Assembly: GCA_947488435.1 (NCBI GenBank)
Contig: CANKZG010000001.1
Location: 248,001 to 312,000, forward strand
DNA from: an uncultured Flavobacteriaceae bacterium
GTDB taxonomy: Bacteria; Bacteroidota; Bacteroidia; Flavobacteriales; Flavobacteriaceae
Reading direction: 5' to 3'
DNA length: 64,000 nucleotides
Every line of letters starts with the position of its first letter. The first letter of the stretch is position 1. Below the pieces are notes generated by a model. The model did not search any database. It saw only the letters and a list, made by a program, of their open reading frames with translations, and was not told the DNA's origin. Position numbers and translations under genes: made by a program. Below are positions 24,999-51,390 of the stretch, piece after piece.

Positions 24999-25276
24999 TT
25001 TTTTAACATTTGGATTGTAAAAATACAAATATGATTGTGATATTGCACAATATATAGCACAACCATTTTTAACTAAAACAATCGATTTGTGATATTTTTT
25101 ATTGATTTATTGGTAAAACACTAATATTTATTCACATTTAATAATACTATCTTATCATTTTTGAATTAATAACAATGCACTTTAAATCTCATAGTGCCAG
25201 CAATGTCCAAGAGAAGTCTCTAATTTTTTTGGAAAGTTATGTACCAAATTCGATACCAATTATCGGAATAACTGCC

Positions 25277-27115: not shown

Positions 27116-27168
27116 CTCTTATGTCGCTTTAATTTACAATTTCGGGGGTAATTTAAAGCATCCAACGG

Positions 27169-30132: not shown

Positions 30133-30153
30133 TTTCTCAATTATTTAGGGTAA

Positions 30154-31182: not shown

Positions 31183-31456
31183 ATCTTTCGTAACTTAAAT
31201 AACAATGGATTCTTTAATAACAAATATGCAGATTCAAAATGTCATCGCGACAAGTTTACTCATTTTTTCAAACAAAAGTATTATAAATCTAGAAATGATA
31301 AATTAGTATCAATAATCTTAAAAAAACTATAAACAAAAAAAATCATATATTTGCTTGATAATTGCTAATTTCCACGCTTTTGGGGCATATTATTTAAAAG
31401 TACATAATTTAACCGTATTGTTATTATCAGTTTACTATTATTACAAAGTTATTAAC

Positions 31457-31472
31457 ACGAAAACGGTTTCGT
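31457..31472. promoter_or_regulatory. LacI-type operator before susC
   Basis: ACGAAAACGGTTTCGT is a 16-bp palindrome with a single mismatched pair and a CpG centre, the form bound by LacI/GalR dimers. It is 93 bases before the susC ATG and about 285 bases before the lacI gene. It lies upstream of the best -33/-7 pair (31493-31524), which would fit activation; if the TATATTTG box at 31346 is used instead, it would act downstream as a roadblock. Confidence 0.6.
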
Positions 31473-31492
31473 AACCTTTTAAATAAGTCAGA

Positions 31493-31524
31493 TTGCGTTT
31501 TAACAATTATTTTACATATGTTTA
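31493..31524 (+). promoter_or_regulatory. Candidate susC promoter
   Basis: TTG (31493-31495), 21 bases, then TATGTTTA (31517-31524), a 7/8 match to TAnnTTTG. Transcription would begin near 31531, about 35 bases before the susC ATG. Confidence 0.4.
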
Positions 31525-31565
31525 ACCTTGGAAATAAAATTAACTAAACTTAAAATTGATTTTTT

Positions 31566-34541: not shown

Positions 34542-34557
34542 TATAAAAAAAATAGTA

Positions 34558-36294: not shown

Positions 36295-39200
36295 ATGAAT
36301 ACCTTTCGTAAATTTAGTTTTGTTTTTCTTTCATTCCTCTTTTTCGTTTCATGTAATGATCAAAAGGAAACTAAAATTACTACAAATACATCCGCGTTAT
36401 TTACAGCCTTACCACCCGAAACCACAGGCATAGACTTTGTAAACGAAATTACCAACGAAGAGGATTTTAATATCTTCCTCTATCGTAATTTTTATAACGG
36501 AGGTGGAGTAGGTATTGGTGATATTAACAATGATGGACTTCCTGATATCTATCTCACGGCAAATCGAAAAAAGAATCACTTATACCTGAACAAAGGAGAT
36601 TTTACTTTTGAAGATATTTCGGAGAAAGCAGGTGTTGATGGTACGAAAGCGTGGTCAACCGGGGTTGTTTTTGTAGATATTAACTCGGATGGTTTATTGG
36701 ATATCTATGTATGTAATGCAGGTAATATCGAAGGTGATGATCAAAAAAATGAACTGTTTATTAATAATGGGGACCTCACATTCACAGAAAAAGCAGAAGC
36801 GTTTAATTTAGCCGATAGCGGCTTTACAACCCATGCTGCCTTCTTTGATTATGATAAAGATGGGGATTTAGATGTTTATATGCTTAATAACAGTTTCATT
36901 TCGGTAGGGAGTCTTGGCTATGATAACAAAAGGCATTTGCGCGCCGAAGATTGGAATGTTCCAGAAAAAACCAAAGGTGGTGGAGATAAGTTGCTTAGAA
37001 ATGATAATGGTATTTTCACCAATGTAAGTGAAGAAGCGAATATTTTTGGAAGTCTTATTGGTTTTGGGTTGGGCGTAACTATTGGCGATATTAATAATGA
37101 TTTGTACCCTGATATTTATGTATCGAATGACTTTTTTGAACATGATTATCTATATATAAACAATCAGGACGGTACATTTACAGAAGACATTAAAAGTTGG
37201 GCAACACATTTAAGTCTATTTTCCATGGGAGCTGATATGGCAGACATCAATAATGATGGGAAAGCCGATATTTTTGTAACAGATATGCTTCCCGAAGGTG
37301 ATGAGCGTTTAAAAAATACCACCAATTTTGAAACCTATGATATTTACCAGCGAAAACTCCAAAACGGGTTTTATCATCAATACATGCAAAACACCTTGCA
37401 GCTTAATGTTGGTAATGGGTTTTCCGAAATTGCACATTATGGAGGCGTATCCGGCACCGACTGGAGTTGGGGTGCCCTACTCTTTGATATGGATAATGAC
37501 GGATATCGTGATATTTATGTTTGCAATGGTATTTACCACGATCTTACCAACCAAGATTTTATTGATTTCTTTGAAGATGTAGGTCGCCAGCAAACTGCCA
37601 TTTATGGTGAAAAAGAAAAAAAAGATGAAGTCATTAATGCAATGCCGTCTGTAGCTATTCCGAACTATGCCTTTAAGAACAATCAAAACCTTACCTTTTC
37701 AGATGCTACTGTTGATTGGGGACTAAGTACACCAAGTTTCTCTAATGGAGCTGCATATGGAGATCTAGATAATGATGGCGATTTGGATTTGATTATTAAC
37801 AATGTAAATCAACAATTGCTTGTTTATAAAAACAACGCCGATAAACAAGGTAATAACTATCTCAAAATAAAATTAGAAGGAAATAACGCAAACTCCTTTG
37901 CTATTGGTAGCGTAGTAGAAATTTATATCAAGGATCAGATTTTAAGACAAGAACTTATTCCTTCGAGAGGTTTTCAGTCTTCGGTAGCGTATACAATGAC
38001 TATTGGTTTAGGAGATTATAAAGCAGTAGATTCGCTTCGTGTAATATGGCCAGATGATAAAACTCAGCTATTACGCGAAGTTGCTATTAATACTACATTA
38101 AACCTAAAACAAGGGGAAGCAGATGCCGTTTACACTATTGAACAAATAAAACAACCCACACTTTTTGAAGAGCTCGATCATAACTTATCGGCGCATAACG
38201 AAAATAACCACATCGATTTTGATTATGAAGGCCTTATTTCTAAAATGTTATCCCAAGAGGGACCTACCATAGCAATTGCTGATGTGAATAATGATCAAAA
38301 TGAAGATGTTTTTATTGGAGGTGCAAAAGGACAAATTGCACGCCTTTATTTACATACGGGAAATGGTCAATTAAAGTCCGCTATTACTTTTGATGTTTTT
38401 CGCGAAGATCGCGGTTTGGAAGATACGGCATCGGCTTTTTTTGATGCTGATGGGGATGGAGATCAAGATCTCATTGTCGGTTCCGGCGGCAACGAACCTA
38501 AAGACGTTGATAACTACAATAACCGCTTATACCTTAACGATGGACAAGGGAATTTTAGTAGAGCTTTGCAAAAAATACCAAGTACGCAAAATAATGTATC
38601 CGCAATAGCACCGTATGACTTTGATCAAGATGGAGATATCGATTTATTCATAGCTAGTAGAAGTGTTCCCGGTATTTACGGAATTAATCCTGAGCATCTT
38701 TTACTAGAAAATGATGGGAATGGTAATTTTACAAACATCACGGAAAATCGTGCATTTAAACTCAAAGATGTTGGAATGGTAACATCTGCATCTTGGGCAG
38801 ATATCGATGGAGATACTAAGAAAGATTTGGTTCTTGTAGGAGATTGGACAGCTCCTACCGTATTTAAAAACTCCGGACGCAGGTTAAGTCCTTTACGAAC
38901 TTCCTTAGATAGTATTACTGGTTGGTGGAATACGGTAAATGCGCAAGATATTGATGGGGATGGGGATATCGATTTAATTCTAGGTAATCAAGGTACCAAT
39001 ACGGCATATAAAGCGGGAAAAGACACCCCAGTAAAAATGTATGTAAACGATTTTGACAACAATGGAACCATTGAGCAAATCGTTACCAGAACTGTCAATC
39101 AGCGCGATGTCCCGGTTTCCTTAAAACGAGAATTAACAGGTCAGTTGGTTTCCTTAAAAAAAGAGAATCTAAAGTTCTCCGATTATGCTACCAAAAGTAT

Positions 39201-39630
39201 CGATCAACTTTTCACTCCTGAAGTTCTTGCAAATGCCATCGTAAAACAAGTTAATACCTCAGCAAGTAGTATAGCAATTAATCAGGGAAATGGAGAATTT
39301 GAGATCAAAGATCTTCCCAAAGAAACACAGTTTTCTTGTATCTGTACCATTGCTTGTACCGATGTTAATGAGGATGGCATTTTAGATCTAATATTAGCGG
39401 GAAATGATTTCGAATTTAAACCACAATACAGTCGTTTGGATGCGAATTACGGAAACGTATTACTTGGAACTTCAAATAACGAGTTCAAATGGCAGCCTTA
39501 TGAAACCTCAGGTTTTTATTTGAAAGGGGAGGTGAAACAGCTGAAACCCTTTAAAGATCGTAATGGAACCAAATTCCTTATTGCTGGTAGAAACAACAAT
39601 AGTCCTAAAATTTTTAAATTGAATAAATAG
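36295..39630 (+). CDS. Large VCBS/FG-GAP lipoprotein with internal ASPIC/UnbV domain
   Basis: A 1111-residue lipoprotein (signal ending FLFFVSC, Cys20). It contains two series of FG-GAP/VCBS calcium-loop repeats, for example DINNDGLPDIYLT, DINSDGLLDIYVC, DYDKDGDLDVYML and DMDNDGYRDIYVC in the first half and DVNNDQNEDVFIG, DADGDGDQDLIVG, DFDQDGDIDLFIA and DIDGDGDIDLILG in the second. An ASPIC/UnbV-like segment (SLRVIWPDDKTQLLREVAI, ~580) lies between them. It should be an exported double beta-propeller, anchored to a membrane or the cell surface. It lies between the SusC/SusD locus and the sulfonate locus. Two close relatives lie at 48042 and 51391. Substrate and activity are unknown. Confidence 0.85.
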   Translation: MNTFRKFSFVFLSFLFFVSCNDQKETKITTNTSALFTALPPETTGIDFVNEITNEEDFNIFLYRNFYNGGGVGIGDINNDGLPDIYLTANRKKNHLYLNKGDFTFEDISEKAGVDGTKAWSTGVVFVDINSDGLLDIYVCNAGNIEGDDQKNELFINNGDLTFTEKAEAFNLADSGFTTHAAFFDYDKDGDLDVYMLNNSFISVGSLGYDNKRHLRAEDWNVPEKTKGGGDKLLRNDNGIFTNVSEEANIFGSLIGFGLGVTIGDINNDLYPDIYVSNDFFEHDYLYINNQDGTFTEDIKSWATHLSLFSMGADMADINNDGKADIFVTDMLPEGDERLKNTTNFETYDIYQRKLQNGFYHQYMQNTLQLNVGNGFSEIAHYGGVSGTDWSWGALLFDMDNDGYRDIYVCNGIYHDLTNQDFIDFFEDVGRQQTAIYGEKEKKDEVINAMPSVAIPNYAFKNNQNLTFSDATVDWGLSTPSFSNGAAYGDLDNDGDLDLIINNVNQQLLVYKNNADKQGNNYLKIKLEGNNANSFAIGSVVEIYIKDQILRQELIPSRGFQSSVAYTMTIGLGDYKAVDSLRVIWPDDKTQLLREVAINTTLNLKQGEADAVYTIEQIKQPTLFEELDHNLSAHNENNHIDFDYEGLISKMLSQEGPTIAIADVNNDQNEDVFIGGAKGQIARLYLHTGNGQLKSAITFDVFREDRGLEDTASAFFDADGDGDQDLIVGSGGNEPKDVDNYNNRLYLNDGQGNFSRALQKIPSTQNNVSAIAPYDFDQDGDIDLFIASRSVPGIYGINPEHLLLENDGNGNFTNITENRAFKLKDVGMVTSASWADIDGDTKKDLVLVGDWTAPTVFKNSGRRLSPLRTSLDSITGWWNTVNAQDIDGDGDIDLILGNQGTNTAYKAGKDTPVKMYVNDFDNNGTIEQIVTRTVNQRDVPVSLKRELTGQLVSLKKENLKFSDYATKSIDQLFTPEVLANAIVKQVNTSASSIAINQGNGEFEIKDLPKETQFSCICTIACTDVNEDGILDLILAGNDFEFKPQYSRLDANYGNVLLGTSNNEFKWQPYETSGFYLKGEVKQLKPFKDRNGTKFLIAGRNNNSPKIFKLNK

Positions 39631-39675: not shown

Positions 39676-39693
39676 AATGTAAACGTTTACATT
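39676..39693. promoter_or_regulatory. Perfect 18-bp LacI-type operator, copy 1
   Basis: AATGTAAACGTTTACATT is a perfect 18-bp palindrome with a central CpG. An identical copy is at 42279-42296, and the LacI gene at 40663 lies between them. Here it ends 9 bases before a -7 box (39703-39710), covering the place where the -33 region would be, so a bound repressor would block the exporter gene. Confidence 0.85.
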
Positions 39694-39702
39694 AATTATT
39701 AG

Positions 39703-39710
39703 TATGTTTG
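39703..39710 (+). promoter_or_regulatory. -7 promoter element of the exporter gene
   Basis: TATGTTTG is a full TAnnTTTG match. Transcription would start near 39717, just before the ATG at 39723. This argues against the TTG at 39708, which is part of the promoter, as translation start. Confidence 0.55.
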
Positions 39711-39722
39711 CATCACTTTACA

Positions 39723-40655
39723 ATGCTCTCAAGACCAATCACATATAGTATAGCGATACTTATCCTAATCGGCACACTTTTAGGGTATATTTCTCCGGCT
39801 ATTGCACTATCCATAGGTATGGTGAGTGGGGTATTCAATCTGGCAAATAGAAAGCTAGTGCTATCCAATATTAAATTTCAGAAATTACTCCTTCAATTAT
39901 CCGTAGTAGGTTTAGGTTTCGGAATTAACATTAAAGAAGCTATTGTTGTCGGTTCGGATAGTTTTTTTATTACCCTCATTACTATTGTATGCACTTTTAT
40001 CATTGCATTTGGTATTGGAAAACTAGTTAAATCGGAAAAAATAACTACAATTTTGGTTGCATCCGGAACGGCAATATGTGGAGGAAGCGCTATAGCTGCT
40101 GTAAGTCCTTGTTTAAGGGCTAATTCTAACCAGACTTCTATTGCCTTAGCCATTGTTTTCTTGCTTAATGCTATTGCTTTATTTATTTTTCCCACCGTTG
40201 GACATTATTTTGAATTAAGTCAATCGCAGTTTGGTCTTTGGAGTGCTATTGCCATACACGATACGAGTTCTGTTGTTGGAGCAGCCGAATTGTTTGGCGA
40301 AGAATCGTTAAACATAGCAACCACTACCAAATTGGTACGTACATTATGGATAATTCCTTTGGTGTTGATCATTTCATTTGGCTCTAACGCACAAGACAAA
40401 TTTAGTTTTCCATGGTTTATTCTTGGTTTTCTGGCGGCAATGGCAATTTCCTATTACATTCCCCAAATGGAGACTGTTAGTAATAGTATTGTATGGTTAT
40501 CCCGAAAACTATTAATCTTTACTTTATTTCTAATCGGATTACAAATTAGTATTGGAAAAATTAAGAAACTGGGTTTTAACATTCTTATCGTTGGTGTAAC
40601 TACTTGGGTTACTTTGGCAGTTATTTCGTTACTTTATATTCTGAACTACACTTAG
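39723..40655 (+). CDS. YeiH/UPF0324-family exporter, probable sulfite/sulfate exporter
   Basis: A 310-residue membrane protein with about ten helices of the UPF0324 (YeiH, 'putative sulfate exporter') family. Conserved segments are the glycine-rich GTAICGGSAIAAVSP (~120) and AIAIHDTSSVVGAAELFG (~175). Family members are proposed to export sulfur oxyanions, but proof is limited. Its link to an operator shared with an SsuD-like monooxygenase operon fits removal of sulfite made by desulfonation. I chose the ATG at 39723; upstream TTG 39708 overlaps the -7 element. The LacI gene follows after 7 bases, so both may be co-transcribed, which would make the regulator autoregulated. Confidence 0.85.
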   Translation: MLSRPITYSIAILILIGTLLGYISPAIALSIGMVSGVFNLANRKLVLSNIKFQKLLLQLSVVGLGFGINIKEAIVVGSDSFFITLITIVCTFIIAFGIGKLVKSEKITTILVASGTAICGGSAIAAVSPCLRANSNQTSIALAIVFLLNAIALFIFPTVGHYFELSQSQFGLWSAIAIHDTSSVVGAAELFGEESLNIATTTKLVRTLWIIPLVLIISFGSNAQDKFSFPWFILGFLAAMAISYYIPQMETVSNSIVWLSRKLLIFTLFLIGLQISIGKIKKLGFNILIVGVTTWVTLAVISLLYILNYT

Positions 40656-40662
40656 TTTTCTA

Positions 40663-41664
40663 ATGGCAAGTATAAAGGATATTGCAAAAATTACAGGATT
40701 GTCCTTGGCAACTGTATCCCGTGTTTTTAATAATAGTCCTTCCGTATCTCCTAAAACAAGATCTAAAGTTTTAGACGCTGCCAAACAGTTAGATTATCAT
40801 CCTAATCAAATGGCGGCGGCTCTGCGCAGTGGAAAAAGTAAAATTATTGGAGTTATCGTTCCAGAAGTGAATAATTATTTTTTCAGCAGTATCATTAATG
40901 GTATAGAAAAGAAATTGACGGATCTGGGGTATCGTATTATTATTGCACAATCCCATGAGTCGGCGGAAAATGAACAAAAGGCATTGCAATCTTTTTTAAA
41001 TCTCAATGTGGATGGCATTCTGATGTCAATATCAAAAAAAACTACAGATTACGCACTATTCGAAAAAATAATTTCAGATCAACTACCCATTGTCTTCTTT
41101 GATCGTATCCCAAAACTAGCTGAAATTAATTCGGTTACCTTGGATGATTATAAAGGAGCTTATATTGCAACAGAACATCTAATTGAAGGTGGCTGTAAAC
41201 ATTTGATTCATGTCGCTGGGGATTCCAAGGTTTCTATTTTTAAAAAAAGAAAAAAAGGTTTTTTAGATGCTTTAGCAAAACACAAACATCCTGTTAATAC
41301 CTATACGGTTTCCGAACTTAGCTCAAATCCAAAAAAAGATCTTGAATTAATCAACACCCTATTTCAGCTGCATCCTACTATTGACGGAATTTTTGTTCAC
41401 GGAGATGAAAGCAGTCTCTATCTAATGAACTTATTACAATCACTTAAAATATCGATTCCAAAGCAACTAAAATTAATTGGTTTTGGAAATGCCAATTATA
41501 GTGAACTTGTTCAACCCCCACTTAGTTCAATTGATCAACGCTGTGATGAAATGGGTGCAATTGCTGCTACTATTTTATTAAAACACCTAACAAAAAAACA
41601 AACGATGCCTCAAAAAGAAATTCTTTCACCTAAATTAATTATTCGACAGTCTTCCGCCAACTAG
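40663..41664 (+). CDS. LacI-family regulator of the sulfonate locus
   Basis: A 333-residue LacI/GalR repressor: HTH ASIKDIAKITGLSLATVSRV (2-21), hinge NQMAAALRSGKSKIIGVIVP, then a sugar-binding-like sensor domain ending SPKLIIRQSS. It is flanked by two identical 18-bp operators at 39676 and 42279, which are its probable targets. It follows the exporter gene by 7 bases and converges with the FMN reductase gene (6 bases between). LacI sensors usually bind sugars or sugar phosphates, which supports a sugar-like sulfonate as inducer. Confidence 0.93.
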   Translation: MASIKDIAKITGLSLATVSRVFNNSPSVSPKTRSKVLDAAKQLDYHPNQMAAALRSGKSKIIGVIVPEVNNYFFSSIINGIEKKLTDLGYRIIIAQSHESAENEQKALQSFLNLNVDGILMSISKKTTDYALFEKIISDQLPIVFFDRIPKLAEINSVTLDDYKGAYIATEHLIEGGCKHLIHVAGDSKVSIFKKRKKGFLDALAKHKHPVNTYTVSELSSNPKKDLELINTLFQLHPTIDGIFVHGDESSLYLMNLLQSLKISIPKQLKLIGFGNANYSELVQPPLSSIDQRCDEMGAIAATILLKHLTKKQTMPQKEILSPKLIIRQSSAN

Positions 41665-41670
41665 TTCATA

Positions 41671-42213
41671 TCAAAAGCTCTTAAGTTCATCTATCTGCTT
41701 CTGAAGGCTTTCCGTAGCATCGGGAGTAATGGTGTTATCTTCTTTATTGATTAACTTAAATATGGAAGAGATTGGATTTTTATTTGGATGGACAAACATT
41801 CCCAAATGATTCAATACATCTGCCAAGTGATCCATGCCTCTAAGATTTCCCGCTCTACCTGAAGCTATCCCTGTAATACACGCCCTTTTTCCATTAAAAC
41901 TTTTCGCATATTCCCGCACCGACATCGAATCCAGAATTACTTTTAAAATCCCTGGATAGCTCCCGTTATATTCAGGAACAAAAAACCAGAATCGACTAGC
42001 AGGAATAAAAAATGTATCTTGTATATGCTGAATAAGTGCAGGTTGTTCAGAATCTTTATACATCGTTTCGCTCACCATATCACCTTCAAGATTTGATAAA
42101 TCTAAAAATAATACTTCTTCGTCGGCCTGTCTTTTTAGCAAATCGAAGGCGTGTTTTGCAAAATATTGTGTCTTGTTAGACTTTCTATTCGAACCAGATA
42201 TAACGGTAATCAT
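41671..42213 (-). CDS. NAD(P)H-dependent FMN reductase (SsuE-like flavodoxin fold)
   Basis: A 180-residue NADPH_dep_FMN_red-type flavoprotein. The phosphate loop for FMN is near ISGSNRKSNKTQYFA (4-18), and FFVPEYNGSYPGILKVILDS (~77-96) is the conserved PEYNGS active-site loop. It would supply FMNH2 to the two-component monooxygenase encoded on the opposite strand at 43270. It is divergent from the aldo/keto reductase gene with an operator in the shared region. The usual SsuE partner belongs to this same fold. Confidence 0.88.
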   Translation of the reverse strand: MITVISGSNRKSNKTQYFAKHAFDLLKRQADEEVLFLDLSNLEGDMVSETMYKDSEQPALIQHIQDTFFIPASRFWFFVPEYNGSYPGILKVILDSMSVREYAKSFNGKRACITGIASGRAGNLRGMDHLADVLNHLGMFVHPNKNPISSIFKLINKEDNTITPDATESLQKQIDELKSF

Positions 42214-42259
42214 ACTCGTGAATTTGGGTGCTACTTAAAAATTATTAATCCAATTAAGT

Positions 42260-42267
42260 CAAAATTA
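42260..42267 (-). promoter_or_regulatory. -7 element of the FMN reductase gene
   Basis: CAAAATTA on the plus strand is TAATTTTG on the minus strand, a full TAnnTTTG match, about 47 bases before the ATG. The operator at 42279-42296 lies where the -33 element would be, so repression by occlusion is likely. Confidence 0.45.
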
Positions 42268-42278
42268 CTAATTTTAAG

Positions 42279-42296
42279 AATGTAAACGTTTACATT
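42279..42296. promoter_or_regulatory. Perfect 18-bp LacI-type operator, copy 2
   Basis: AATGTAAACGTTTACATT, identical to the copy at 39676-39693. It lies in the divergent region between the FMN reductase gene (66 bases away) and the aldo/keto reductase gene (53 bases away), so one site can control both directions. Confidence 0.88.
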
Positions 42297-42330
42297 TTTG
42301 AATTATTTATTTACATTTACAAACGCAACT

Positions 42331-42338
42331 TATATTTC
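42331..42338 (+). promoter_or_regulatory. Candidate -7 element of the aldo/keto reductase operon
   Basis: TATATTTC is a 7/8 match to TAnnTTTG, 11 bases before the ATG at 42349. No TTG is at normal spacing; the operator ends 34 bases upstream. Confidence 0.3.
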
Positions 42339-42348
42339 GTTTAACATT

Positions 42349-43239
42349 ATGACTTTATCAAAAGAAAATATCTCTCCCTTTATTGTAGGCACTATGCGAT
42401 TGGGAAGTTGGGGAAGTAATTTGTCTCCAAAAGCCTATGAAGCTTTTATTGAAGGATGTCTTGAATTAGGTTTAAAGGATTTCGATCATGCTGATATTTA
42501 CGGGGACTATACCACAGAAGCAGACTTTGGAAATGTATTTAAAAATCGCTCCAATTTGCGCCAGCAATTGCGTATTACCACGAAATGCGGTATTAAATTG
42601 ATTTCTACCAATCGACCTGATCATAAAGTTAAATCCTATGATTTATCTAAAGAACATATCTTAAGCTCTGTAGATATATCCCTTCAAAATTTGCATACAG
42701 ATTATATTGATGTTTTACTCTTACATAGACCTGATTATTTATTAGACCCTTCTGAAATCGCAGAGGCTTTTGTGCAACTTAAAAAAGAAGGTAAGGTCAA
42801 CGCGTTTGGAGTCTCCAATTTTACTCCTTCGCAATTTGATTTACTGCAAAATGTTACTCCCTTAATAACCAATCAGATCGAAGTATCGCTATTACAACGC
42901 AATGCTTTTGAGGATGGCACGCTAGATCAGTGTCAAAAACTAAATGTTATTCCCACGGCATGGTCTCCACTTGGAGGAGGACAACTTTTCCAAGATTCGA
43001 AAGATGCTAAGATAATTGCGATTCGCAAAGTTCTGAACATGTTATCTGAAAAATACAATCTAGCAGCAGATCAACTATTATACACTTGGTTGCGCAAACA
43101 TCCTGCCGGCATTGTTCCGGTGTTAGGAACGTCAAAATTGGAACGAATACAAAAAGCATGCAAAGCCCTAGAAGCTGATATTACCAAAGAAGAATGGTAT
43201 ATGCTATGGGAAGCCGCAATTGGTGGTGAAGTTGCCTAA
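42349..43239 (+). CDS. Aldo/keto reductase (YdhF-like), possible 6-oxo-sugar reductase
   Basis: A 296-residue NADPH-dependent AKR barrel. The catalytic tetrad is visible: Asp and Tyr in FDHADIYGDYTTE, Lys in RITTKCGI and His in VLLLHRPDYL. Cofactor-binding strands GVSNFTPSQF and GTSKLERIQ follow. I chose the ATG at 42349; an in-frame TTG at 42298 sits next to the operator and upstream of the probable promoter. Placed first in an operon with an SsuD-like monooxygenase, it may reduce the aldehyde left after desulfonation, as SmoB does with 6-oxo-glucose in the sulfo-SMO pathway. That role is inferred from context only. Confidence 0.88.
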   Translation: MTLSKENISPFIVGTMRLGSWGSNLSPKAYEAFIEGCLELGLKDFDHADIYGDYTTEADFGNVFKNRSNLRQQLRITTKCGIKLISTNRPDHKVKSYDLSKEHILSSVDISLQNLHTDYIDVLLLHRPDYLLDPSEIAEAFVQLKKEGKVNAFGVSNFTPSQFDLLQNVTPLITNQIEVSLLQRNAFEDGTLDQCQKLNVIPTAWSPLGGGQLFQDSKDAKIIAIRKVLNMLSEKYNLAADQLLYTWLRKHPAGIVPVLGTSKLERIQKACKALEADITKEEWYMLWEAAIGGEVA

Positions 43240-43269
43240 ATATTAATCATAACATACAATTCAAACGAT

Positions 43270-44427
43270 ATGGATACCGACAAAATACCAATTAGATCCC
43301 CACATTTAGAAGGAGCAGAAGTTTCCTGGTTTGCACCAATCTGTAATGGTGATGATCGTTATATTGGAGAAAAAGATATGTCATTTAAAAGTACTTTTGA
43401 AAATACCTCAGAAATACTTTTAACCGCAGACAAACACGGTTATAGAAATATACTATGCCCGTCTTCCTATCAAGTAGGACAAGATACGCTACCGTTTGTA
43501 GCTGCTGTGGCTCCAATGACAGAGCAAATTAACCTTCTGGCAGCTGTACGTTGTGGAGAAATACATCCTCCCATGCTAGCCAGAACCTTAGCAACTATTG
43601 ATCATATATTAAAAGGACGATTTACAATTAATATAATTTCTTCCAACTTACCAGGACAAGATCTTTCTTCTGAAGATCGTTACCAGAAATCCCGTGAAGT
43701 AATTGAAATTCTCAAGCAAGCTTGGACGCAAGATGAAATAAATTATCAAGGCAAATTCTATAATTTAAAACTGCCATCGCTCCCTGCCAAACCTTATCAA
43801 AAAAATGGACCTCTACTCTATTTCGGAGGGTATTCTCCTCCAGCGGTGGAATTATGTGCTGAACACTGCGATGTGTATTTAATGTGGCCTGAAACAGAAG
43901 GGAACCTGAGAAAATTAATGAAAAACATGAGCGCCAAGGCAGCCGGTTATGGGCGCAAAGTAGATTTTGGCTTACGTGTACATGTAGTTGTAAGAGAAAC
44001 CGAAGAGGAAGCTAGAGCTTATGCAGATAGTATTATATCAAAGTTAGGAGTAGAACAAGGCATTGAACTGCGTGAAAGATCCTTAGATGCTAAATCCTAT
44101 GGTGTAAGTAGACAAGCTCAGATGCGAGAAATCTCTAAAGATGACGGTTATGTAGAAGATCATATGTGGACAGGAATTGGCAAAGGTCGATCAGGTTGTG
44201 GCGCAGCACTTGTTGGAAATCCAGACCAAATTGTAGAAAAATTAAATCGCTATATGGATATGGGAATAAGATCCTTTATCTTTTCCGGTTATCCACATAA
44301 AGAAGAAGCTGAACGATTTGCAAAACTCGTACTTCCACGATTAAAGACATTTTCAATGCCAATTGAGCAAGGAAAAGTGAGTACAGAAGAACCATTGAGT
44401 CCGTTGGGGGCAGGAATACGGGTTTAA
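43270..44427 (+). CDS. SsuD/SmoC-like FMNH2-dependent sulfonate monooxygenase (LLM class)
   Basis: A 385-residue luciferase-like monooxygenase. Alkanesulfonate-monooxygenase features are Trp206 (YLMWPE), Arg236 and His238 in GLRVHVVVRETEEEA, Arg307 in KGRSGCGAALVG and Tyr341 in SGYPHKEEAERF. In E. coli SsuD the equivalent Arg, His, Arg and Tyr positions bind sulfonate and flavin peroxide. The enzyme would use O2 and FMNH2 to split a C-S bond, giving sulfite and an aldehyde. The adjacent AKR, FMN reductase, symporter and sulfite-oxidase genes support a sulfonate substrate. Dimethylsulfone-type enzymes (SfnG) are the main alternative within the family. Confidence 0.87.
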   Translation: MDTDKIPIRSPHLEGAEVSWFAPICNGDDRYIGEKDMSFKSTFENTSEILLTADKHGYRNILCPSSYQVGQDTLPFVAAVAPMTEQINLLAAVRCGEIHPPMLARTLATIDHILKGRFTINIISSNLPGQDLSSEDRYQKSREVIEILKQAWTQDEINYQGKFYNLKLPSLPAKPYQKNGPLLYFGGYSPPAVELCAEHCDVYLMWPETEGNLRKLMKNMSAKAAGYGRKVDFGLRVHVVVRETEEEARAYADSIISKLGVEQGIELRERSLDAKSYGVSRQAQMREISKDDGYVEDHMWTGIGKGRSGCGAALVGNPDQIVEKLNRYMDMGIRSFIFSGYPHKEEAERFAKLVLPRLKTFSMPIEQGKVSTEEPLSPLGAGIRV

Positions 44428-44477
44428 AACCATTTTTGGCTTATTATTTAGCGAACAAAGTCTTATATTACAATGTT

Positions 44478-44524
44478 TAAGTGGTTATTGTTTCTTCTCT
44501 AATTGAAGGAATTATAACCACTTA
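44478..44524. repeat. 11-bp perfect inverted repeat before the symporter gene
   Basis: TAAGTGGTTAT (44478-44488) and ATAACCACTTA (44514-44524) are perfect arms around a 25-base loop, in the 133-base gap between the monooxygenase and the symporter. There is no T-run after it, so it is not a classical terminator. It could attenuate or process the operon transcript, or bind a second regulator. Confidence 0.5.
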
Positions 44525-44560
44525 GGAAGAATTGACATACTAATTTAACCAATAGATTTC

Positions 44561-46105
44561 ATGATTGATTTACTTATTGTTTGCGCCTATTTTATAATTG
44601 TTTTTGTAACTGCCATAACAGGAAGAACATCAAAGGACGCCTCGGTAGAAGACTACTTTCTAAGTGGTCGCAACTTACGCTGGCCTTCCATAGCATTCTC
44701 AACCATTGCTACCAATGTTCAAGGCTATCAATTCTTGGGTTTCATGGGATCAGCTTATCTCTATGGTCTGGCCCAAGCAAATTTTGAAATTAATGCTATT
44801 CAAGGGTTGTTATTGGCTGCCTTTATTTTTGTTCCCATGTACTTCAGGGAAAAAATCATTACCATTACGCAATTTATAAAAACACGGTTAGGTAGCACTG
44901 TAGCACTAATTTATTCTGCATCTAACATTCTTCTTTTTTCTACTATTACACTTGGCGCTGCCCTATTTTGGGGAGCTTACTCTGTAGATTTAGTATTTGG
45001 TGATTATTTGGCGTTCATTCATGAAGAACGTTTAATTCGTATTGCTATTCTCATTGTATTTCTAGGTTTATTTTCTGCTACCTATACATATTTTGGAGGA
45101 TTAGCTGCTGTAGTAAGAACGGATGTTATACAGTTTGCCATTCTATTATCGGGTGGTATTGTCGTATTGTTCATCGCAATTTATCATTTAGGTGGATGGT
45201 CTCAATTATATGAAAAAACTGGTGATCTCATGCATTTGCATTTGCCCGCGGATCACCCTACACTTCCATGGATACATATTTTTGGTGCTTTTCTTCTGAA
45301 CATCAATTATTGGTGTGCCAATCAATCCGTTGTTCAACGGTCACTTGCTGCTAAGAGCTTGAAAGATGTTCAAATAGGACTTATGGTTGGTGGAGTTATG
45401 AAATATTTTATGGCTGCAATTATTATTCTTCCAGGTATTGCGCTAGTAGGTATTTTAGGAGATAGCGGTCTTACCGATCCCGATGGTGCGTTCCCGTATT
45501 TGGTAGACACCTATTTACCGGTTGGACTTAAAGGCCTTATTCTTTGTGCACTTTTTGCCTCCTTGATGAGTACCGTTGACTCTACATTTAATTCGCTAGC
45601 CACATTATGGTCTATTGATATTTATAAGGTTTATATAAACAAAAAAGCAACAGACCAGCAAGTTGTAAGTTCTGGTAAAAAGGCTATTTTGTTATCTTTT
45701 ATATCGGGGGTTGTTATTGGCATTGTGCTATTATATCTTAAGTTCAACAATCCGGAAGCTGCTTTTACACATACTTTAAATGAGCTTCGTTATTATATTA
45801 ATTGTGGTATTGTAGTGCTAATATGTGCTGCAGCCTTTTTAGCATTCCCCAAACAAAAAGTGGCGCTTTTGGGCTTTATATCCACAGTTCCATTACAATT
45901 TTTGTTTATCTGGCTGTTCCCCGAAATGAATTATTTGGTACGTGCGATGTGGGTAATCATCGTAGGGTTTATGGTAATTTGGTTAGGTTCAACAACCGGG
46001 TTTGTAAAGAATAAATTAAAACCTGAACCCGCCTCTCCTATGCTAGCAAAAGCAGGTATTGGAATGGCTATCTCACTAATAGTTTTACATATTGTATTTC
46101 ATTAA
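44561..46105 (+). CDS. Sodium:solute symporter (SSS family, SGLT-like)
   Basis: A 514-residue transporter with about 13-14 helices. Family segments are DYFLSGRNLRWPSIAFSTIA near residue 33, TYTYFGGLAAVVRTDVIQF near 168 and LKGLILCALFASLMSTVDST near 327, which contains the conserved Na+-site serines. Bacteroidota SGLT-like members import sugars, sialic acids and related solutes with Na+. Within this operon it is the obvious importer for the organosulfonate or a sulfonated sugar. The sulfite-oxidase gene starts 5 bases after its stop. Confidence 0.92.
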   Translation: MIDLLIVCAYFIIVFVTAITGRTSKDASVEDYFLSGRNLRWPSIAFSTIATNVQGYQFLGFMGSAYLYGLAQANFEINAIQGLLLAAFIFVPMYFREKIITITQFIKTRLGSTVALIYSASNILLFSTITLGAALFWGAYSVDLVFGDYLAFIHEERLIRIAILIVFLGLFSATYTYFGGLAAVVRTDVIQFAILLSGGIVVLFIAIYHLGGWSQLYEKTGDLMHLHLPADHPTLPWIHIFGAFLLNINYWCANQSVVQRSLAAKSLKDVQIGLMVGGVMKYFMAAIIILPGIALVGILGDSGLTDPDGAFPYLVDTYLPVGLKGLILCALFASLMSTVDSTFNSLATLWSIDIYKVYINKKATDQQVVSSGKKAILLSFISGVVIGIVLLYLKFNNPEAAFTHTLNELRYYINCGIVVLICAAAFLAFPKQKVALLGFISTVPLQFLFIWLFPEMNYLVRAMWVIIVGFMVIWLGSTTGFVKNKLKPEPASPMLAKAGIGMAISLIVLHIVFH

Positions 46106-46110
46106 TTACA

Positions 46111-47334
46111 ATGAAAAGAAGAAATTTTATTACTAAAAGCGCCCTAGGAACGCTTACAACATTGTTAGGAACAGAGATCGTTTTCGGCAGCACAATGCCT
46201 AGAGATTATAACCCCTTAGCATTACAGGATCCGGATCCTTTTAAACTCTTCAATAAGGACTCTGGTATGTCGGTATTGAATACGAAGCCATGGAATATTG
46301 AAGCTACCGCTCATCTATTGGACGACAGAGTAACGCCAAATTCAGTCATGTTTATTCGTAATAATGGTCTTATCCCGGAAAATGTTGACATCAATACTTG
46401 GTCATTGACTTTTGACGGTGAATCGGTGGAAAACAACAAAGTTTATACCTTAGCCGAGCTAAAATCAAAATTTAAGCAATATACCTATCAACTTACCTTA
46501 GAATGTGGCGGTAATGGGCGTAGTGAATTTAATCCTCCCGCTAAGGGAAATCAATGGACTATTGGAGCTGTTGCCAGCGCAGAATGGACAGGAGTACGTT
46601 TACGTGATCTTTTGGATGACGTTGGTATTAAAAATGATGCCGTTTACATTGGGTATCATGCCGCAGACACACACCTAAGTCGCAACCCAGATAAAGAACC
46701 TATATCCAGAGGAGTCCCTATAGCAAAAGCTTTGCAGGAAGAAACCTTGATCGCTTTTAAAATGAATGGAAAAGATATTCCGCTTGCCCATGGGTTTCCG
46801 CTGCGTTTAATTGCTGGAGGTTGGCCCGCTTCCGCCTCTGGAAAATGGCTCAATCGCATTAGTGTACGAAACAAAATTCATGATGGAGCAAAAATGACAG
46901 GCACTTCTTATCGTGTTCCTTGTAAGCCAGTAGCTCCTGGGGGAAAGGTCGCCGAAGAAGATATGTGTATTATAGAATCGATGCCTGTAAAATCCTTGAT
47001 TACTTACCCAAAATCCGGTGCAATTCTAAAAGACGGACAATCCCTGAATATAAGGGGACATGCTTGGGCAGGGGAATTAGAAGTTTCCAAAATGGAGTAT
47101 TCTATAGATTTTGGAGCCAGTTGGAAAAGCTGTACTTTGGAAAAACCTGTTAATCGTCTAGCCTGGCAACATTTTTCTGCCACAATTTCGAATTTCCCGA
47201 AAAAGGGATATTATGAGGTATGGGCAAGAGCTACCGATAGTCAGGGTTTAGCACAACCCATGATACTTCCAGGTTGGAACCCTAAAGGATATTTAAATAA
47301 TGCATGTCATCGTATTGCTATTAAAATAACTTAG
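46111..47334 (+). CDS. Periplasmic sulfite oxidase/dehydrogenase-like molybdoenzyme
   Basis: A 407-residue sulfite oxidase-family protein. The N-terminus KRRNFITKSALGTLTTLLG is a twin-arginine signal. Residues ~60-265 form the molybdopterin domain with the Mo-ligand Cys132 in LECGGNGRSEF and the cofactor segment HGFPLRLIAGGWPASASGKW (227-246). Residues ~290-407 form the Mo-co dimerisation domain (WAGELEVSKMEYSIDFGASW). It likely oxidises sulfite to sulfate in the periplasm and gives electrons to the membrane cytochrome c encoded 1 base downstream, as in SorT/SorU-type systems. No heme domain is fused to it. SoxC-like or other substrates remain possible. Confidence 0.88.
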   Translation: MKRRNFITKSALGTLTTLLGTEIVFGSTMPRDYNPLALQDPDPFKLFNKDSGMSVLNTKPWNIEATAHLLDDRVTPNSVMFIRNNGLIPENVDINTWSLTFDGESVENNKVYTLAELKSKFKQYTYQLTLECGGNGRSEFNPPAKGNQWTIGAVASAEWTGVRLRDLLDDVGIKNDAVYIGYHAADTHLSRNPDKEPISRGVPIAKALQEETLIAFKMNGKDIPLAHGFPLRLIAGGWPASASGKWLNRISVRNKIHDGAKMTGTSYRVPCKPVAPGGKVAEEDMCIIESMPVKSLITYPKSGAILKDGQSLNIRGHAWAGELEVSKMEYSIDFGASWKSCTLEKPVNRLAWQHFSATISNFPKKGYYEVWARATDSQGLAQPMILPGWNPKGYLNNACHRIAIKIT

Positions 47335-47335
47335 A

Positions 47336-47800
47336 ATGCCTAAAGAACAAGATTTTAGAAAGCAGGTACGTCTAGTCTATCATTATTTACTTTTAACCTT
47401 TGTAAGTGTTGTATTGATCATTTTTGGAGTTATTTATATAACCACCGAACCTGATGTTAGCTATACTTTACCAGAAACAATAGCACCAGAAACAACAGCA
47501 TTAGACGCTGAAATTATAGCCGGTATTCATGTTCCAACTGGATTTGTTGAAGGAGACGGTCTTCCCCTTGTAATTCAAAATTGCACAAATTGTCATGCAG
47601 CCGCTTTAGTCACTCAAAACAGAATGAGCCGTGAAGGTTGGGTCGCCACTATTCGTTGGATGCAGGAAACTCAGAATCTATGGGATCTTGGTGAAAATGA
47701 AACAGCTATTGTTGACTATTTAGCAACCCATTATGCTCCAGATCAAAAGGGTCGTCGTGAAAATCTAGCAACTACAGAATGGTATCAATTGAAACCATAA
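47336..47800 (+). CDS. Membrane-anchored monoheme cytochrome c
   Basis: A 154-residue protein with one N-terminal helix (residues ~14-35) and a periplasmic domain with one heme c site, CTNCH (83-87). Met97 or Met109 may be the axial ligand. It follows the sulfite-oxidase gene by 1 base, so it is the likely electron acceptor, carrying electrons to the respiratory chain. It is the last gene of the operon; no GC-rich terminator hairpin is seen after it. Confidence 0.9.
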   Translation: MPKEQDFRKQVRLVYHYLLLTFVSVVLIIFGVIYITTEPDVSYTLPETIAPETTALDAEIIAGIHVPTGFVEGDGLPLVIQNCTNCHAAALVTQNRMSREGWVATIRWMQETQNLWDLGENETAIVDYLATHYAPDQKGRRENLATTEWYQLKP

Positions 47801-47850: not shown

Positions 47851-48041
47851 AATTCCGTTAGCATCCAAAAATAGAATTGTGTTTTAAATCTAAGCTTTCA
47901 ACTCACAATTTCCTTACAATTTTAAACAGCTATAACGTAATAGTATTCTTAAAAGATAATCCTTATGTATTTAAAGAAAATATTAACCCTTACCACCTTC
48001 CATGTTCAATAGAGAATACTTATCTTTCCTTCCTATTTGCA

Positions 48042-51000
48042 ATGAATATGAGAAGGATTTCTGGGCTTTTTTTCATTCTGTGTTTTGTCTTTTGTGCCTG
48101 TACTAAAAAGAACGATCCTCTTTTTCTTAAAATACCTTCTTCCGTAACTAATATCGATTTTTCCAATACACTTGTTGATACTCCTGAATTGAATATATTA
48201 ACCTATTTATATTATTATAATGGAGCAGGTGTGGCCGCAGCAGATTTTAACAATGATGGATTAATAGATCTTTATTTTACAGCAAATCAGGGACCAGATA
48301 AAATTTATCTCAATAAGGGAGACTTTACTTTTGAAGACATTACGCAACAATCTGGAATCCATAACACAACGGCGTGGACCACTGGAGTTACACATATTGA
48401 TATTAATAACGACGGACTGCTCGATATATATATATGTAAAATTGGCGATTACCGAGGTATTACAGGGCAAAATTTACTTTATATAAATCAGGGGGTAAAT
48501 GCTCAAGGTATTCCTACTTTTAAGGAAGATGCCAAAGCATTTGGCTTAGATTTTTCTGGCTTTTCTACGCAAGCATCATTCTTTGATTATGATCTAGATG
48601 GAGATTTAGATCTCTTTTTACTTAATCATTCTGTGCATCCCAGTAGTAATTATGGCAAAGGAAAAAAAAGAACCGAGATCAACTCCGTTTCGGGCGACAA
48701 ATTGTTTCGAAATGACAATGGGTTTTTTACGGACGCTTCCGAAATTGCAGGAATTTTTCAGGGAAGCATTGGTTATGGATTAGGACTTAGCGTAAGCGAC
48801 GTTAATAACGACGGTTATCCGGATATTTATGTTGGTAACGATTTTTTTGAAAATGATTACTTATACATAAATCAAAAGAATGGTACTTTTTATGAGGTAA
48901 TTTCTAAAGACTCTAGGAAACTGGGACATACCACTCACTTTTCTATGGGGAATGACATTGCGGATATTAATAATGATGGCCTTACAGATATTCTATCTTT
49001 AGATATGCTTCCAGAAGATTTGGAAACCTATAAAACCTCTGGTTTGGAATATGACTTTCCTACCTATCAGTATTATCTTAAAAATGGGTACGCTCCTCAA
49101 TACATGCAAAACACATTGCATTTAAATTTAGGGAATTCCGTATTTAGTGAAGTAGCCTCAGTAAGCGGTATTGCTGCAACAGAATGGTCATGGGGGGCTT
49201 TATTCGCAGATTATGATAATGACGGTTTTAAAGATCTCTTCATTTCTAATGGGATAAAGGGAGCAACAAACGATATGGATTTCATCAATTTTATTGCTAA
49301 TGATCACATTCAAAATAAAATCAATAAAGGAATGTCGACAGAAGATTTAGACTTTATTGACAAAATGCCAGAGAAAAAAGTACCGAATTATTTTTTTAAA
49401 AATAATACAGATCTCACCTTTCAAAATACAACTTCAACTTGGTATCTCCAAGAAGACACGTTTAGTAATGGCGCCATTTATGCAGATCTAGACAACGATG
49501 GAGATTTAGATATTGTGGTTAATAACGTTAACGAAAATGCCCATGTTTTAAAAAATGTTCAAGATCAGAAGCTTAAAAATAACGCCCTCTCAATTCGCTT
49601 AAAAGGGAACAAAACCAACCCCTTCGGTATTGGAGCTAAATTAATCGGGTATCAACAAGCAAACAAAATTGTTCAAGAGCATTTTCCTTCCAGGGGTTAT
49701 TTATCTGCTGTTTCCAATAGCATACACCTAGGCTTAGGAAAAGATGCTACTTTAGATTCCCTACAAATTGTTTGGCCAGGAGGTTTATTTCAAACGTTAA
49801 AGACTATCACTACACCAACTATGGTATTGGATATTGCCAATGCTTCAGGTAATTTTTACACCAATAATACTACAACTGCAAATACCGCATTTGCCCTAAA
49901 AGATAGCTTGGTACGTTTTAAACATCAAGAAGCAACGACCATAGAGTTCGATCGAGATCCTCTTGTTCCCTTTGCGAATACCAATCAAGGTCCTATGATT
50001 TCGGTAGCAGACACCAATGGAGATGGACTTGAAGATGTTTTTATTAGCGGAGCTAAGGCACAAGCTTCCGCTTTATTCATGCAGGACAGCTTAGGCGTTT
50101 TTACTGCAAGTCAACAAGATTTATTTTTGGAAGATGCTTTAAATGAAGATACTTCACAGGTTTTTTTTGATGCTAACGGAGACTCCTTTCCCGATTTATT
50201 GGTAGTAAGCGGAGGCAACGAGTTTAAATCTTCTAAAACCTTACAACCTAGACTTTACATAAATGAAAAAGGGGTATTCAAAAAAAGTTCGACACAATTT
50301 AGTGGGATAGAGTTAAATGCCTCTGCGGTAGATGTTGTAGATTTTGACAATGATGGAGATTTAGATGTCACCATTGTATCAGATCAGGTGCCGCAACAAT
50401 TTGGTAAAACCCCGAAACAATATTTGTTTCGAAATGACGGTCACGGCAACTTCATAGAGGTAACGCAAGCTATGGCTTATGCCATAGAAGATCTAGGTAA
50501 TGTTAAAGATTTTTTATGGGTAGATATCGATCAAAATGGATACAAAGACCTTATTGCAGTAGGGTATTGGATGCCTATATCTATTTTTACCAATAATGGC
50601 ACCACCCTGAATCCTGTAAACGTTTCTGGATTAGAAACATCCCATGGATGGTGGAATACAATTATTGCCGAGGATTTTGACCAGGACGGTGATATTGATT
50701 TGGTAGCCGGAAACTGGGGTAAAAACAGTAAGTTTTCTGCTTCCATAGAAAAACCAATTACCCTCTATAGTTCTGATTTTGATGAAAACGGATCTATAGA
50801 GCCTTTAGTTACCTATTTCCATAAGAACAAAGAAACTCCGTTTGCTTCTAAGGATGAGTTGGTAAAACAGATGCCCTTTTTGAACAAAAAATTCCTTTCC
50901 TATAAAAATTTTGCCGCAGCAAGCATAACTGAGTTGTTCGGTGCAAAAAAATTGAAGGCAGCCTATAAAAAGAAAACTTATGAACTCGCTAGTTGTTATT

Positions 51001-51386
51001 TTGAAAATGATGGAAGTGGGAATTTTATAAAAAAGGAACTGCCATTTATTGCACAAACCTCTTCAGTAACCGATATGATGGTTGAAGATTTTAATAATGA
51101 TGGTTTAAAAGATCTCATACTAATAGGAAATATTGATGAAATTAGCACACAATTAGGCAGGTTGGATGCTATGCATGGAATAGTTTTAAATTTTACTCCA
51201 AACGGAAATTTTCAATGGGATAGTAACATTCGTTTCCCTATTGATGGCCCTGCTCGTAGTATTCAAAAACTTAAGGTGCAAAATGAGGAACATTATATAG
51301 TTGGCATCAATAACGACAAACCTATTATTTTTAAAAAAGCGGTTTCTGATAAAATTCAGGAACATGACAAACAATCGGATTTATAA
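48042..51386 (+). CDS. Large VCBS/FG-GAP lipoprotein with internal ASPIC/UnbV domain (second copy)
   Basis: A 1114-residue paralogue of the protein at 36295. The frame is open from a TTG at 47877, but the ATG at 48042 (or 48048) puts a lipoprotein signal, ILCFVFCAC, at the N-terminus, so I use it. The repeats have loops such as DFNNDGLIDLYFT, DINNDGLLDIYIC, DYDLDGDLDLFLL, DLDNDGDLDIVVN and DFDQDGDIDLVAG. An ASPIC/UnbV-like strand set (SLQIVWPGGLFQTLKTITT) lies near the middle. The third copy starts 4 bases after its stop, so the two are one operon. The role is unknown; an extracellular binding or scaffold function is plausible. Confidence 0.85.
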   Translation: MNMRRISGLFFILCFVFCACTKKNDPLFLKIPSSVTNIDFSNTLVDTPELNILTYLYYYNGAGVAAADFNNDGLIDLYFTANQGPDKIYLNKGDFTFEDITQQSGIHNTTAWTTGVTHIDINNDGLLDIYICKIGDYRGITGQNLLYINQGVNAQGIPTFKEDAKAFGLDFSGFSTQASFFDYDLDGDLDLFLLNHSVHPSSNYGKGKKRTEINSVSGDKLFRNDNGFFTDASEIAGIFQGSIGYGLGLSVSDVNNDGYPDIYVGNDFFENDYLYINQKNGTFYEVISKDSRKLGHTTHFSMGNDIADINNDGLTDILSLDMLPEDLETYKTSGLEYDFPTYQYYLKNGYAPQYMQNTLHLNLGNSVFSEVASVSGIAATEWSWGALFADYDNDGFKDLFISNGIKGATNDMDFINFIANDHIQNKINKGMSTEDLDFIDKMPEKKVPNYFFKNNTDLTFQNTTSTWYLQEDTFSNGAIYADLDNDGDLDIVVNNVNENAHVLKNVQDQKLKNNALSIRLKGNKTNPFGIGAKLIGYQQANKIVQEHFPSRGYLSAVSNSIHLGLGKDATLDSLQIVWPGGLFQTLKTITTPTMVLDIANASGNFYTNNTTTANTAFALKDSLVRFKHQEATTIEFDRDPLVPFANTNQGPMISVADTNGDGLEDVFISGAKAQASALFMQDSLGVFTASQQDLFLEDALNEDTSQVFFDANGDSFPDLLVVSGGNEFKSSKTLQPRLYINEKGVFKKSSTQFSGIELNASAVDVVDFDNDGDLDVTIVSDQVPQQFGKTPKQYLFRNDGHGNFIEVTQAMAYAIEDLGNVKDFLWVDIDQNGYKDLIAVGYWMPISIFTNNGTTLNPVNVSGLETSHGWWNTIIAEDFDQDGDIDLVAGNWGKNSKFSASIEKPITLYSSDFDENGSIEPLVTYFHKNKETPFASKDELVKQMPFLNKKFLSYKNFAAASITELFGAKKLKAAYKKKTYELASCYFENDGSGNFIKKELPFIAQTSSVTDMMVEDFNNDGLKDLILIGNIDEISTQLGRLDAMHGIVLNFTPNGNFQWDSNIRFPIDGPARSIQKLKVQNEEHYIVGINNDKPIIFKKAVSDKIQEHDKQSDL

Positions 51387-51390
51387 GTTC

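Follow-up and report, generated by a model that had tools for sequence, protein, structure and literature searches.

Among described routes of desulfonation, the one closest to the genes considered here is the sulfo-SMO (or sulfo-ASMO) pathway of Agrobacterium and Novosphingobium, which combines a SmoC/SquD-type monooxygenase, a reductase of the aldo/keto reductase (AKR) family and a flavin reductase of the SsuE kind, and whose predicted products are glucose and sulfite. A SmoC-type monooxygenase, an AKR family protein and an SsuE/MsuE-like FMN reductase, with the same products predicted, recur in an eight-gene cluster within a 64,000-nucleotide stretch of DNA (hereafter, the window; C1:248001-312000) from an uncultured marine Flavobacteriaceae bacterium, whose genome (4.34 Mb in 26 contigs) is rated 99.98% complete. 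The gene content of this cluster, the family placement of its proteins, and the conservation and position of its operators make it probable that we are dealing with a LacI-controlled, sulfolytic flavobacterial locus of the sulfo-SMO type, acting on a sulfosugar, most likely sulfoquinovose, and oxidizing the resulting sulfite to sulfate.

The cluster departs from the described pathway in its host, a member of the Bacteroidota; in its SSS-family symporter, which stands where clusters of the Marinovum and Rhizobium type have ABC or TRAP importers; and in its additions, i.e., a LacI operator of its own and a sulfite dehydrogenase with a cytochrome. It also has no recognizable sulfoquinovosidase, and such an enzyme is not present in every sulfo-SMO cluster. 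As far as the consulted sections of the sources go, flavin reductases of the SsuE kind serve in many sulfo-SMO clusters (PMC9594981), the pathway occurs largely in alpha- and beta-Proteobacteria (PMC9594981; PMC12890257), and a 2026 survey reports frequent clusters also in Actinomycetota and Spirochaetota (PMC13372026). Among the titles, abstract openings and excerpts covered by our literature search, we found no description of sulfo-SMO in Bacteroidota or of its union with a sulfite dehydrogenase.

SorAB-type sulfite dehydrogenases of sulfonate degraders, which according to excerpts of PMC9594981 oxidize sulfonate-derived sulfite in Paracoccus and Cupriavidus, likewise join a molybdenum enzyme to a c-type cytochrome; however, the window's enzyme falls below the cut-offs of the SorA, SorT and SoxC models and its cytochrome below that of SorB (NF052246; 26 bits, cut-off 93), and here the pair stands under the operator of a sulfosugar-type cluster. 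The SsuDE and MsuDE systems have in common with the window the fold family, five site residues and a two-component logic, yet SsuD occupies a separate branch and the window's proteins do not reach the equivalog cut-offs for SsuD, SsuE and MsuE. The cluster is, moreover, flanked by SusC, SusD and ASPIC/UnbV FG-GAP proteins of the kinds that form SusCD/FG-GAP cassettes in Flavobacteriaceae, and in the window the desulfonation block lies inside the cassette; in four other genomes of the family (L222, L224, L225 and L227), the stretch fetched has the cassette without SmoC.

The evidence begins with the monooxygenase (43270-44427, plus strand), a predicted sulfoquinovose monooxygenase of the SmoC type and the sole PF00296 match in the genome. 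When compared with proteins of solved structure, it scored 500 bits to 7oh2 and 485 to 7olf (56-58% identity), which we take to be SmoC; 239 to 7jv3, presumably MsuD; 203 to 1nqk/1m41, presumably SsuD; 117 to 3rao; and 101 to SfnG 8t0u, and its identity to an SsuD was 35%. 7oh2 and 7olf group (0.999) with the enzyme of Rhizobium sp. SL42, whose cluster has Gfo/Idh/MocA, AKR and flavin reductase genes, and this grouping of sequences offers independent support for their identity as SmoC. The cut-offs of the curated models for SsuD (TIGR03565; 270 bits, cut-off 518) and SfnG (TIGR04021; 161 bits, cut-off 383) were both missed. A tree built from 118 sequences, 117 of them distinct, placed the window's protein among 98 (from Bacteroidota and from seven metagenome-assembled genomes (MAGs), of which five are of Chloroflexota type, one belongs to Abditibacteriaceae and one is unclassified) that were sister to eight proteobacterial SmoC, with support of 0.91 on the window side and 1.0 on the SmoC side, and the SsuD set stood apart at 0.998. 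On the SmoC side, 7oh2 and 7olf fall with the monooxygenases of Marinovum, Rhizobium SL42, Ruegeria, Roseivivax and Paracoccus clusters that contain Gfo/Idh/MocA, AKR and flavin reductase genes, apart from SsuD. The SmoC nearest to the window's on named contigs are from Flavobacteriaceae, e.g., Croceitalea, Allomuricauda, Flagellimonas and Maribacter. At 99 positions, the eight SmoC agree on a residue that the SsuD set lacks; the window has the SmoC residue at 64 of these (and SsuD, by construction, at none). The phylogenetic check that the initial annotation had set beforehand thus placed the enzyme, by scores and by tree, with SmoC and with neither SfnG nor SsuD, and placement with SsuD, MsuD or SfnG was rejected on the bit scores, the cut-offs and the tree. 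The same annotation had singled out Arg236, His238 and Tyr341 as sulfonate-site residues. All three are present, as are W206 and H343; but because the four SsuD compared carry the same five residues, they are not diagnostic of sulfoquinovose.

The surroundings of SmoC in other genomes bear on the substrate (neighbor counts refer to 80 loci and to genes within 6 kb of SmoC, and some contigs are short). Five Chloroflexota-type contigs carry SmoC homologs 66-72% identical to that of the window. On one of these (L107, Anaerolineales), an operon consists of an AKR gene, a GH188-like gene and SmoC (72% identical), the middle protein scoring 226 bits to the GH188 structure 8qc2, which is FlSqgA in the excerpted text of PMC10755693, where a GH188 is characterized from a strain labeled Flavobacterium sp. 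K172. L114, from the Chloroflexota branch within the window's clade, has a GH188-like gene (35%); a GH31 beside its SmoC was rejected as a sulfoquinovosidase, its nearest relatives being other GH31 proteins, with YihQ far lower. In Novosphingobium PP1Y, a 47-48% homolog is accompanied by a YihQ-type GH31 (809 bits to 5ohy, the Agrobacterium sulfoquinovosidase, tabulated as yihQ), a LacI gene, a TonB receptor, an AKR and a glpD-type gene. Clusters of the Roseobacter group and of rhizobia combine a Gfo/Idh/MocA protein (in Marinovum, nearest to 8zn9 and 8qc3), SmoC, an AKR, a flavin reductase, and TRAP or ABC importers; the Qingshengfaniella locus has no Gfo/Idh/MocA protein, AKR or flavin reductase within 5 kb. 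The occurrence of GH188-type or YihQ-type GH31 genes beside homologs of the monooxygenase supports sulfoquinovose as its likely substrate and, together with the SmoC placement, bears out the initial annotation's suggestion of a route related to sulfo-SMO.

The commonest partner of SmoC is an SSS symporter (56 of the 80 loci), as would be expected if, as first proposed, the sodium symporter belongs to the set. Ten of the 80 loci, belonging either to Saprospiraceae or Saprospirales or to Flavobacteriaceae, have a gene of the glpD type; in three of the ten, an FGGY gene that reads as a glycerol kinase follows (Pfam was run on one), and in G228 an extra exact operator lies upstream of glpD. The glpD of the window's own genome has no operator site within two mismatches. 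These glpD and glycerol-kinase genes suggest that the relatives start from sulfoquinovosyl glycerol as their outer substrate, and the putative glycerol link (glpD/glpK) is new here.

The second body of evidence is regulatory. As initially annotated, the cluster contains two identical operators, and both are perfect palindromes of 18 bp: AATGTAAACGTTTACATT occurs upstream of the exporter gene (39676-39693) and again between the FMN reductase gene on the minus strand and the AKR gene on the plus strand (42279-42296), where it can by its position serve both divergent units. Operator 1 is followed at 39703-39710 by TATGTTTG, a -7 box that fits the Bacteroidota consensus. With the box at this place, the exporter probably starts at ATG 39723 and not at TTG 39708, where the mechanical open reading frame (ORF) opens; for the AKR, the likely start is ATG 42349 in place of TTG 42298, and both corrected starts lie downstream of the operators.

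We scanned 97 related loci (1.54 Mb; 96 are distinct, L050 being the same contig as L134) for the 14-bp core TGTAAACGTTTACA, using 150 composition-matched shuffled palindromes as controls. The exact core was found 17 times and none of the 150 control palindromes had an exact hit; at one mismatch or fewer there were 22 sites, whereas the controls averaged 0.41 and never exceeded 3, so the operator recurs far beyond chance. Every one of the 22 sites lies 14-108 bp upstream of a mechanical start, belonging to genes for the exporter, AKR, FMN reductase, SmoC, SusC or sulfite dehydrogenase. In L111, an exact core precedes SusC, and the SusCD pairs of L067, L098 and L111 are mutually related (SusC 51-67%, SusD 58-73% identity); judged from their sites, SusCD pairs in relatives appear to belong to the regulon, which is also new here. 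The helix-turn-helix of the window's LacI closely matches those of the relatives that keep the operator. In G119, only the block's two sites occur within one mismatch; in G340 a site falls inside a mechanical ORF, and a one-mismatch site on contig 1 of G228 is at least some 390 bp from any gene start. In all 26 contigs of the window's genome, there are three operator sites within two mismatches. The third is an exact copy on contig 5 (C5:92954-92971; L019:9955-9972), ahead of a gene for a cupin-like protein of 133 aa. This gene was rejected as a conserved regulon member: among 29 orthologs scanned (of 37 other matches), none has a site under three mismatches.

All eight genes of the set, at 39708-47800, are open frames where the initial annotation placed them, with the family matches claimed. 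The first (39723-40655, plus strand) encodes a putative sulfite exporter, for which the YeiH-type assignment held at the level of the family (PF03601, 189 bits) but not of the curated YeiH model (TIGR00698, 114 bits; cut-off 232.6); a distant gene of the 'putative sulfate exporter family', 22% identical to it, is present in the smo cluster of Rhizobium sp. SL42. It is followed by the LacI family regulator (40663-41664, plus strand; family match), which we read as the repressor of the cluster, and by the SsuE/MsuE-like FMN reductase (41671-42213, minus strand), divergent from operator 2, which matches PF03358, scores 24 bits to SsuE (cut-off 164) and 27 to MsuE (cut-off 212), and gave no BLAST match to the SmoA-type reductase of the Marinovum cluster. 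The AKR family protein (42349-43239, plus strand), 40% identical to the reductase of the Marinovum cluster, is a putative 6-oxo-glucose reductase in the role of SmoB/SquF. Downstream of the monooxygenase are the SSS-family sodium:solute symporter (44561-46105, plus strand; family match), a predicted sulfosugar importer; the molybdopterin sulfite dehydrogenase (46111-47334, plus strand), which belongs to the sulfite oxidase superfamily and opens with a twin-arginine (RR) sequence; and a small cytochrome c (47336-47800, plus strand), which has a single CTNCH motif and a hydrophobic segment at its N terminus and is a putative membrane-anchored electron acceptor.

The sulfite dehydrogenase matches Oxidored_molyb (168.6 bits) and Mo-co_dimer (67.1 bits), both above the Pfam cut-offs, and its C132 aligns with C185 of chicken sulfite oxidase, as do two Arg and a Tyr with residues of the molybdenum site of that enzyme. 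The dehydrogenase and the cytochrome are in the block in six of the eight syntenic loci (the window, L043, L062, L063, L064, L065, L066 and L069); L069, where the block is intact, is from the cultured Flagellimonas meridianipacifica DSM 25027. In strain ASW18X (L067), the dehydrogenase gene is set apart by six minus-strand frames, starting 8.4 kb beyond SmoC and 6.8 kb beyond the symporter, and has a one-mismatch operator 108 bp upstream; before the dehydrogenase genes of genomes lacking SmoC, no site under three mismatches was found in any of the 25 copies scanned. The operator at this separate copy argues for a regulatory tie between sulfite oxidation and the rest of the set in this lineage. 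The initial claim that sulfite oxidation is joined to desulfonation therefore holds for this lineage, but not in general, since the dehydrogenase is within 6 kb of SmoC in only 4 of the 80 loci.

Several observations weigh against the proposed reading. The node that unites SmoC with the window's clade has a support of only 0.60. The AKR scores higher to 4r9o (246 bits) and YdhF 1og6 (234) than to 7bby/7bbz (227), which we assume to be SmoB, and only 30 of the 80 loci have an AKR of the window's kind close to SmoC; the syntenic L063 lacks it. Among sites with two mismatches in the same loci, two of seven are near cluster genes (before SusC in L067 and L098) and five are unlinked. The dehydrogenase falls below the SorA cut-off (NF052245; 218 bits, cut-off 600), it and the cytochrome are missing from syntenic L063 and L064, and it is hardly commoner in the genomes of the family that have SmoC (7 of 21) than in the others (104 of 376), with three of the seven carrying it in the block and four elsewhere. 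Enzymes near the level of SmoC in their identity to the window's occur on plasmids of Spirosoma (54% for one enzyme) and Emticicia (52%); H343 is gone from the Emticicia enzyme and from both of those in Spirosoma, and their neighbors are amino-acid permeases or GH95. Lastly, no GH31 or GH188 sulfoquinovosidase is recognizable in the genome, where the best match to GH188 is 21% identical (E 2.8e-6).

The last two points are also the basis for supposing that the cluster acts on a different sulfonate (another sulfosugar, or an alkane- or amino-sulfonate), the SmoC-like enzyme having shifted its substrate in Bacteroidota: 35 of the 99 SmoC-specific positions differ in the window, and the identities, the loss of H343 and the neighbors in Spirosoma and Emticicia suggest that substrates may vary near the window's clade. 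We nevertheless consider this unlikely, in that the window retains all five site residues, the Chloroflexota branch of its clade has GH188-type and GH188-like genes (L107 and L114), and a glycosidic sulfosugar would be in keeping with the sugar-type LacI, the AKR and the glycerol genes seen in relatives.

Two plasmid loci are of separate interest. In Spirosoma oryzicola (L214, 1435-12408), SusCD, an amidohydrolase, a SmoC-like enzyme (Y341F, H343L), an amino-acid permease, a cytochrome c and soxC maybe form an amino-sulfonate route; in Emticicia oligotrophica (L213, 6489-12417), a SmoC-like enzyme, a sodium symporter and a GH95 glycosidase are consecutive, hinting at another sulfosugar.

It could also be argued that the dehydrogenase and cytochrome serve sulfur oxidation in general and happen to adjoin the desulfonation genes. 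The dehydrogenase occurs in 111 of the 397 genomes of the family (SmoC in 21), and several of six neighborhoods distant from SmoC (L229-L234) contain genes that, by their names on reading, are putatively for sulfide oxidation or sulfur transport. This, too, seems improbable to us: the genome has a single match to the dehydrogenase and it is contiguous with the block, the separate copy in ASW18X carries, with one mismatch, the operator that none of the 25 copies scanned in SmoC-less genomes has, and the distant Spirosoma plasmid also joins a luciferase-like monooxygenase (LLM) to a cytochrome c and soxC. In that the Spirosoma enzyme, which is 54% identical to the window's, has altered site residues and an amino-acid permease nearby, the plasmid is at the same time a warning that substrates may differ nearby. 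From the spread of the dehydrogenase and the few genomes that have both genes, we interpret it as an ancient flavobacterial enzyme that was recruited to the regulon. L231-L234, from four flavobacterial genomes in which SmoC has no match, place the dehydrogenase and cytochrome in other neighborhoods; close to the pair is a similar gene (about 290 aa) that on reading looks desaturase-like.

A role like that of SsuD or MsuD, in which sulfur would be scavenged when sulfate is limiting, rather than one in carbon catabolism, has very little to recommend it: SsuD is the top curated model and the FMN reductase is SsuE/MsuE-like, but the SsuD score of 270 bits misses the cut-off of 518, the block would by its gene content export and oxidize sulfite rather than assimilate it, sugar-type LacI control and an AKR indicate carbon use, and sea water is, as is generally known, rich in sulfate.

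Under the sulfo-SMO reading, a sulfosugar (most likely sulfoquinovose, perhaps from sulfoquinovosyl glycerol) would enter the cell through the sodium symporter, and the FMN reductase would supply reduced FMN to the SmoC-type monooxygenase, which would cut the C-S bond to give sulfite and 6-oxo-glucose; the latter would be reduced to glucose by the AKR. Sulfite would leave the cytoplasm through the YeiH-type exporter, presuming that this works outward, and be oxidized in the periplasm to sulfate by the molybdenum enzyme, the electrons probably passing to the cytochrome c and on to the respiratory chain. Acting as a repressor at the two operators, LacI would hold down the exporter-lacI unit until a presumed inducer is present, and likewise the divergent units for the FMN reductase and for the reductase, monooxygenase, symporter and sulfite dehydrogenase.

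The initial annotation had seen no sulfoquinovosidase in the window, and the genome-wide search that it called for recognized none either. The cell may draw on sulfoquinovose in free form, or another enzyme may act in place of a recognizable sulfoquinovosidase. The genome's only GH31 was rejected because the solved structures closest to it are alpha-glucosidases (up to 517 bits, against 105 for YihQ); it adjoins a putative glgB (alpha-amylase family, with CBM48). Thirteen Gfo/Idh/MocA matches were rejected as GH188, a Marinovum GH188 query having given three weak matches. GH13 genes near SmoC in L053, L058, L067 and L087 are candidate sulfoquinovosidases; none can be taken as a proven new one, as that of L067 resembles oligo-1,6-glucosidase and the own-genome homolog (52% identical) lies at a different place. 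In L058 (7725-10507), the GH13 gene and SmoC are codirectional, the former running into the start of the latter, and a sulfatase gene lies upstream.

Flavobacteriaceae and Saprospiraceae degrade much algal matter, and, if the proposed reading is true, aerobic, full breakdown of sulfoquinovose to sulfate in one cell extends to the former and desulfonation to the latter, so that a pathway described mainly in Proteobacteria would reach another large phylum. Sulfoquinovose, a sugar of plants, is, in the part of PMC12890257 consulted, described as among the most abundant organosulfur compounds. The analysis also yields a predicted regulon, a candidate sodium-driven sulfosugar importer and a slot for a further sulfoquinovosidase. 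More speculatively, and rather less likely than not, Bacteroidota may possess a widespread sulfosugar sulfolysis of their own, in which a LacI regulon would link uptake (by SusCD and driven by sodium) to SmoC desulfonation and, in certain lineages, also to respiration of sulfite in the periplasm, such that a single cell would convert sulfoquinovosyl glycerol to glucose, glycerol and sulfate, gaining electrons from the sulfur, with the help of a glycosidase not yet known for sulfosugars (the GH13 candidates).

The embedding of the block in the SusCD/FG-GAP cassette is kept in syntenic relatives. In the window, a SusC-SusD pair (31566-36105, plus strand), a possible outer-membrane importer with a terminator-like hairpin after SusD, is separated from the cluster by an FG-GAP/ASPIC-UnbV protein (36295-39630, plus strand), and two more such proteins (47877-54642, plus strand; mechanical ORFs 47877-51386 and 51301-54642) form the other flank. 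No operator within two mismatches precedes the window's SusC, and this, with the hairpin, makes uptake by its SusCD a guess; the pair, which is only 29-35% identical to the site-bearing SusCD pairs, was rejected as a proven regulon member. At 22960-36105, GH13, GH65 and LacI genes and SusCD beside the cluster resemble an alpha-glucan locus. Farther downstream (61551-62741), an HD-domain and PycTM protein is a candidate Pycsar-type anti-phage effector.

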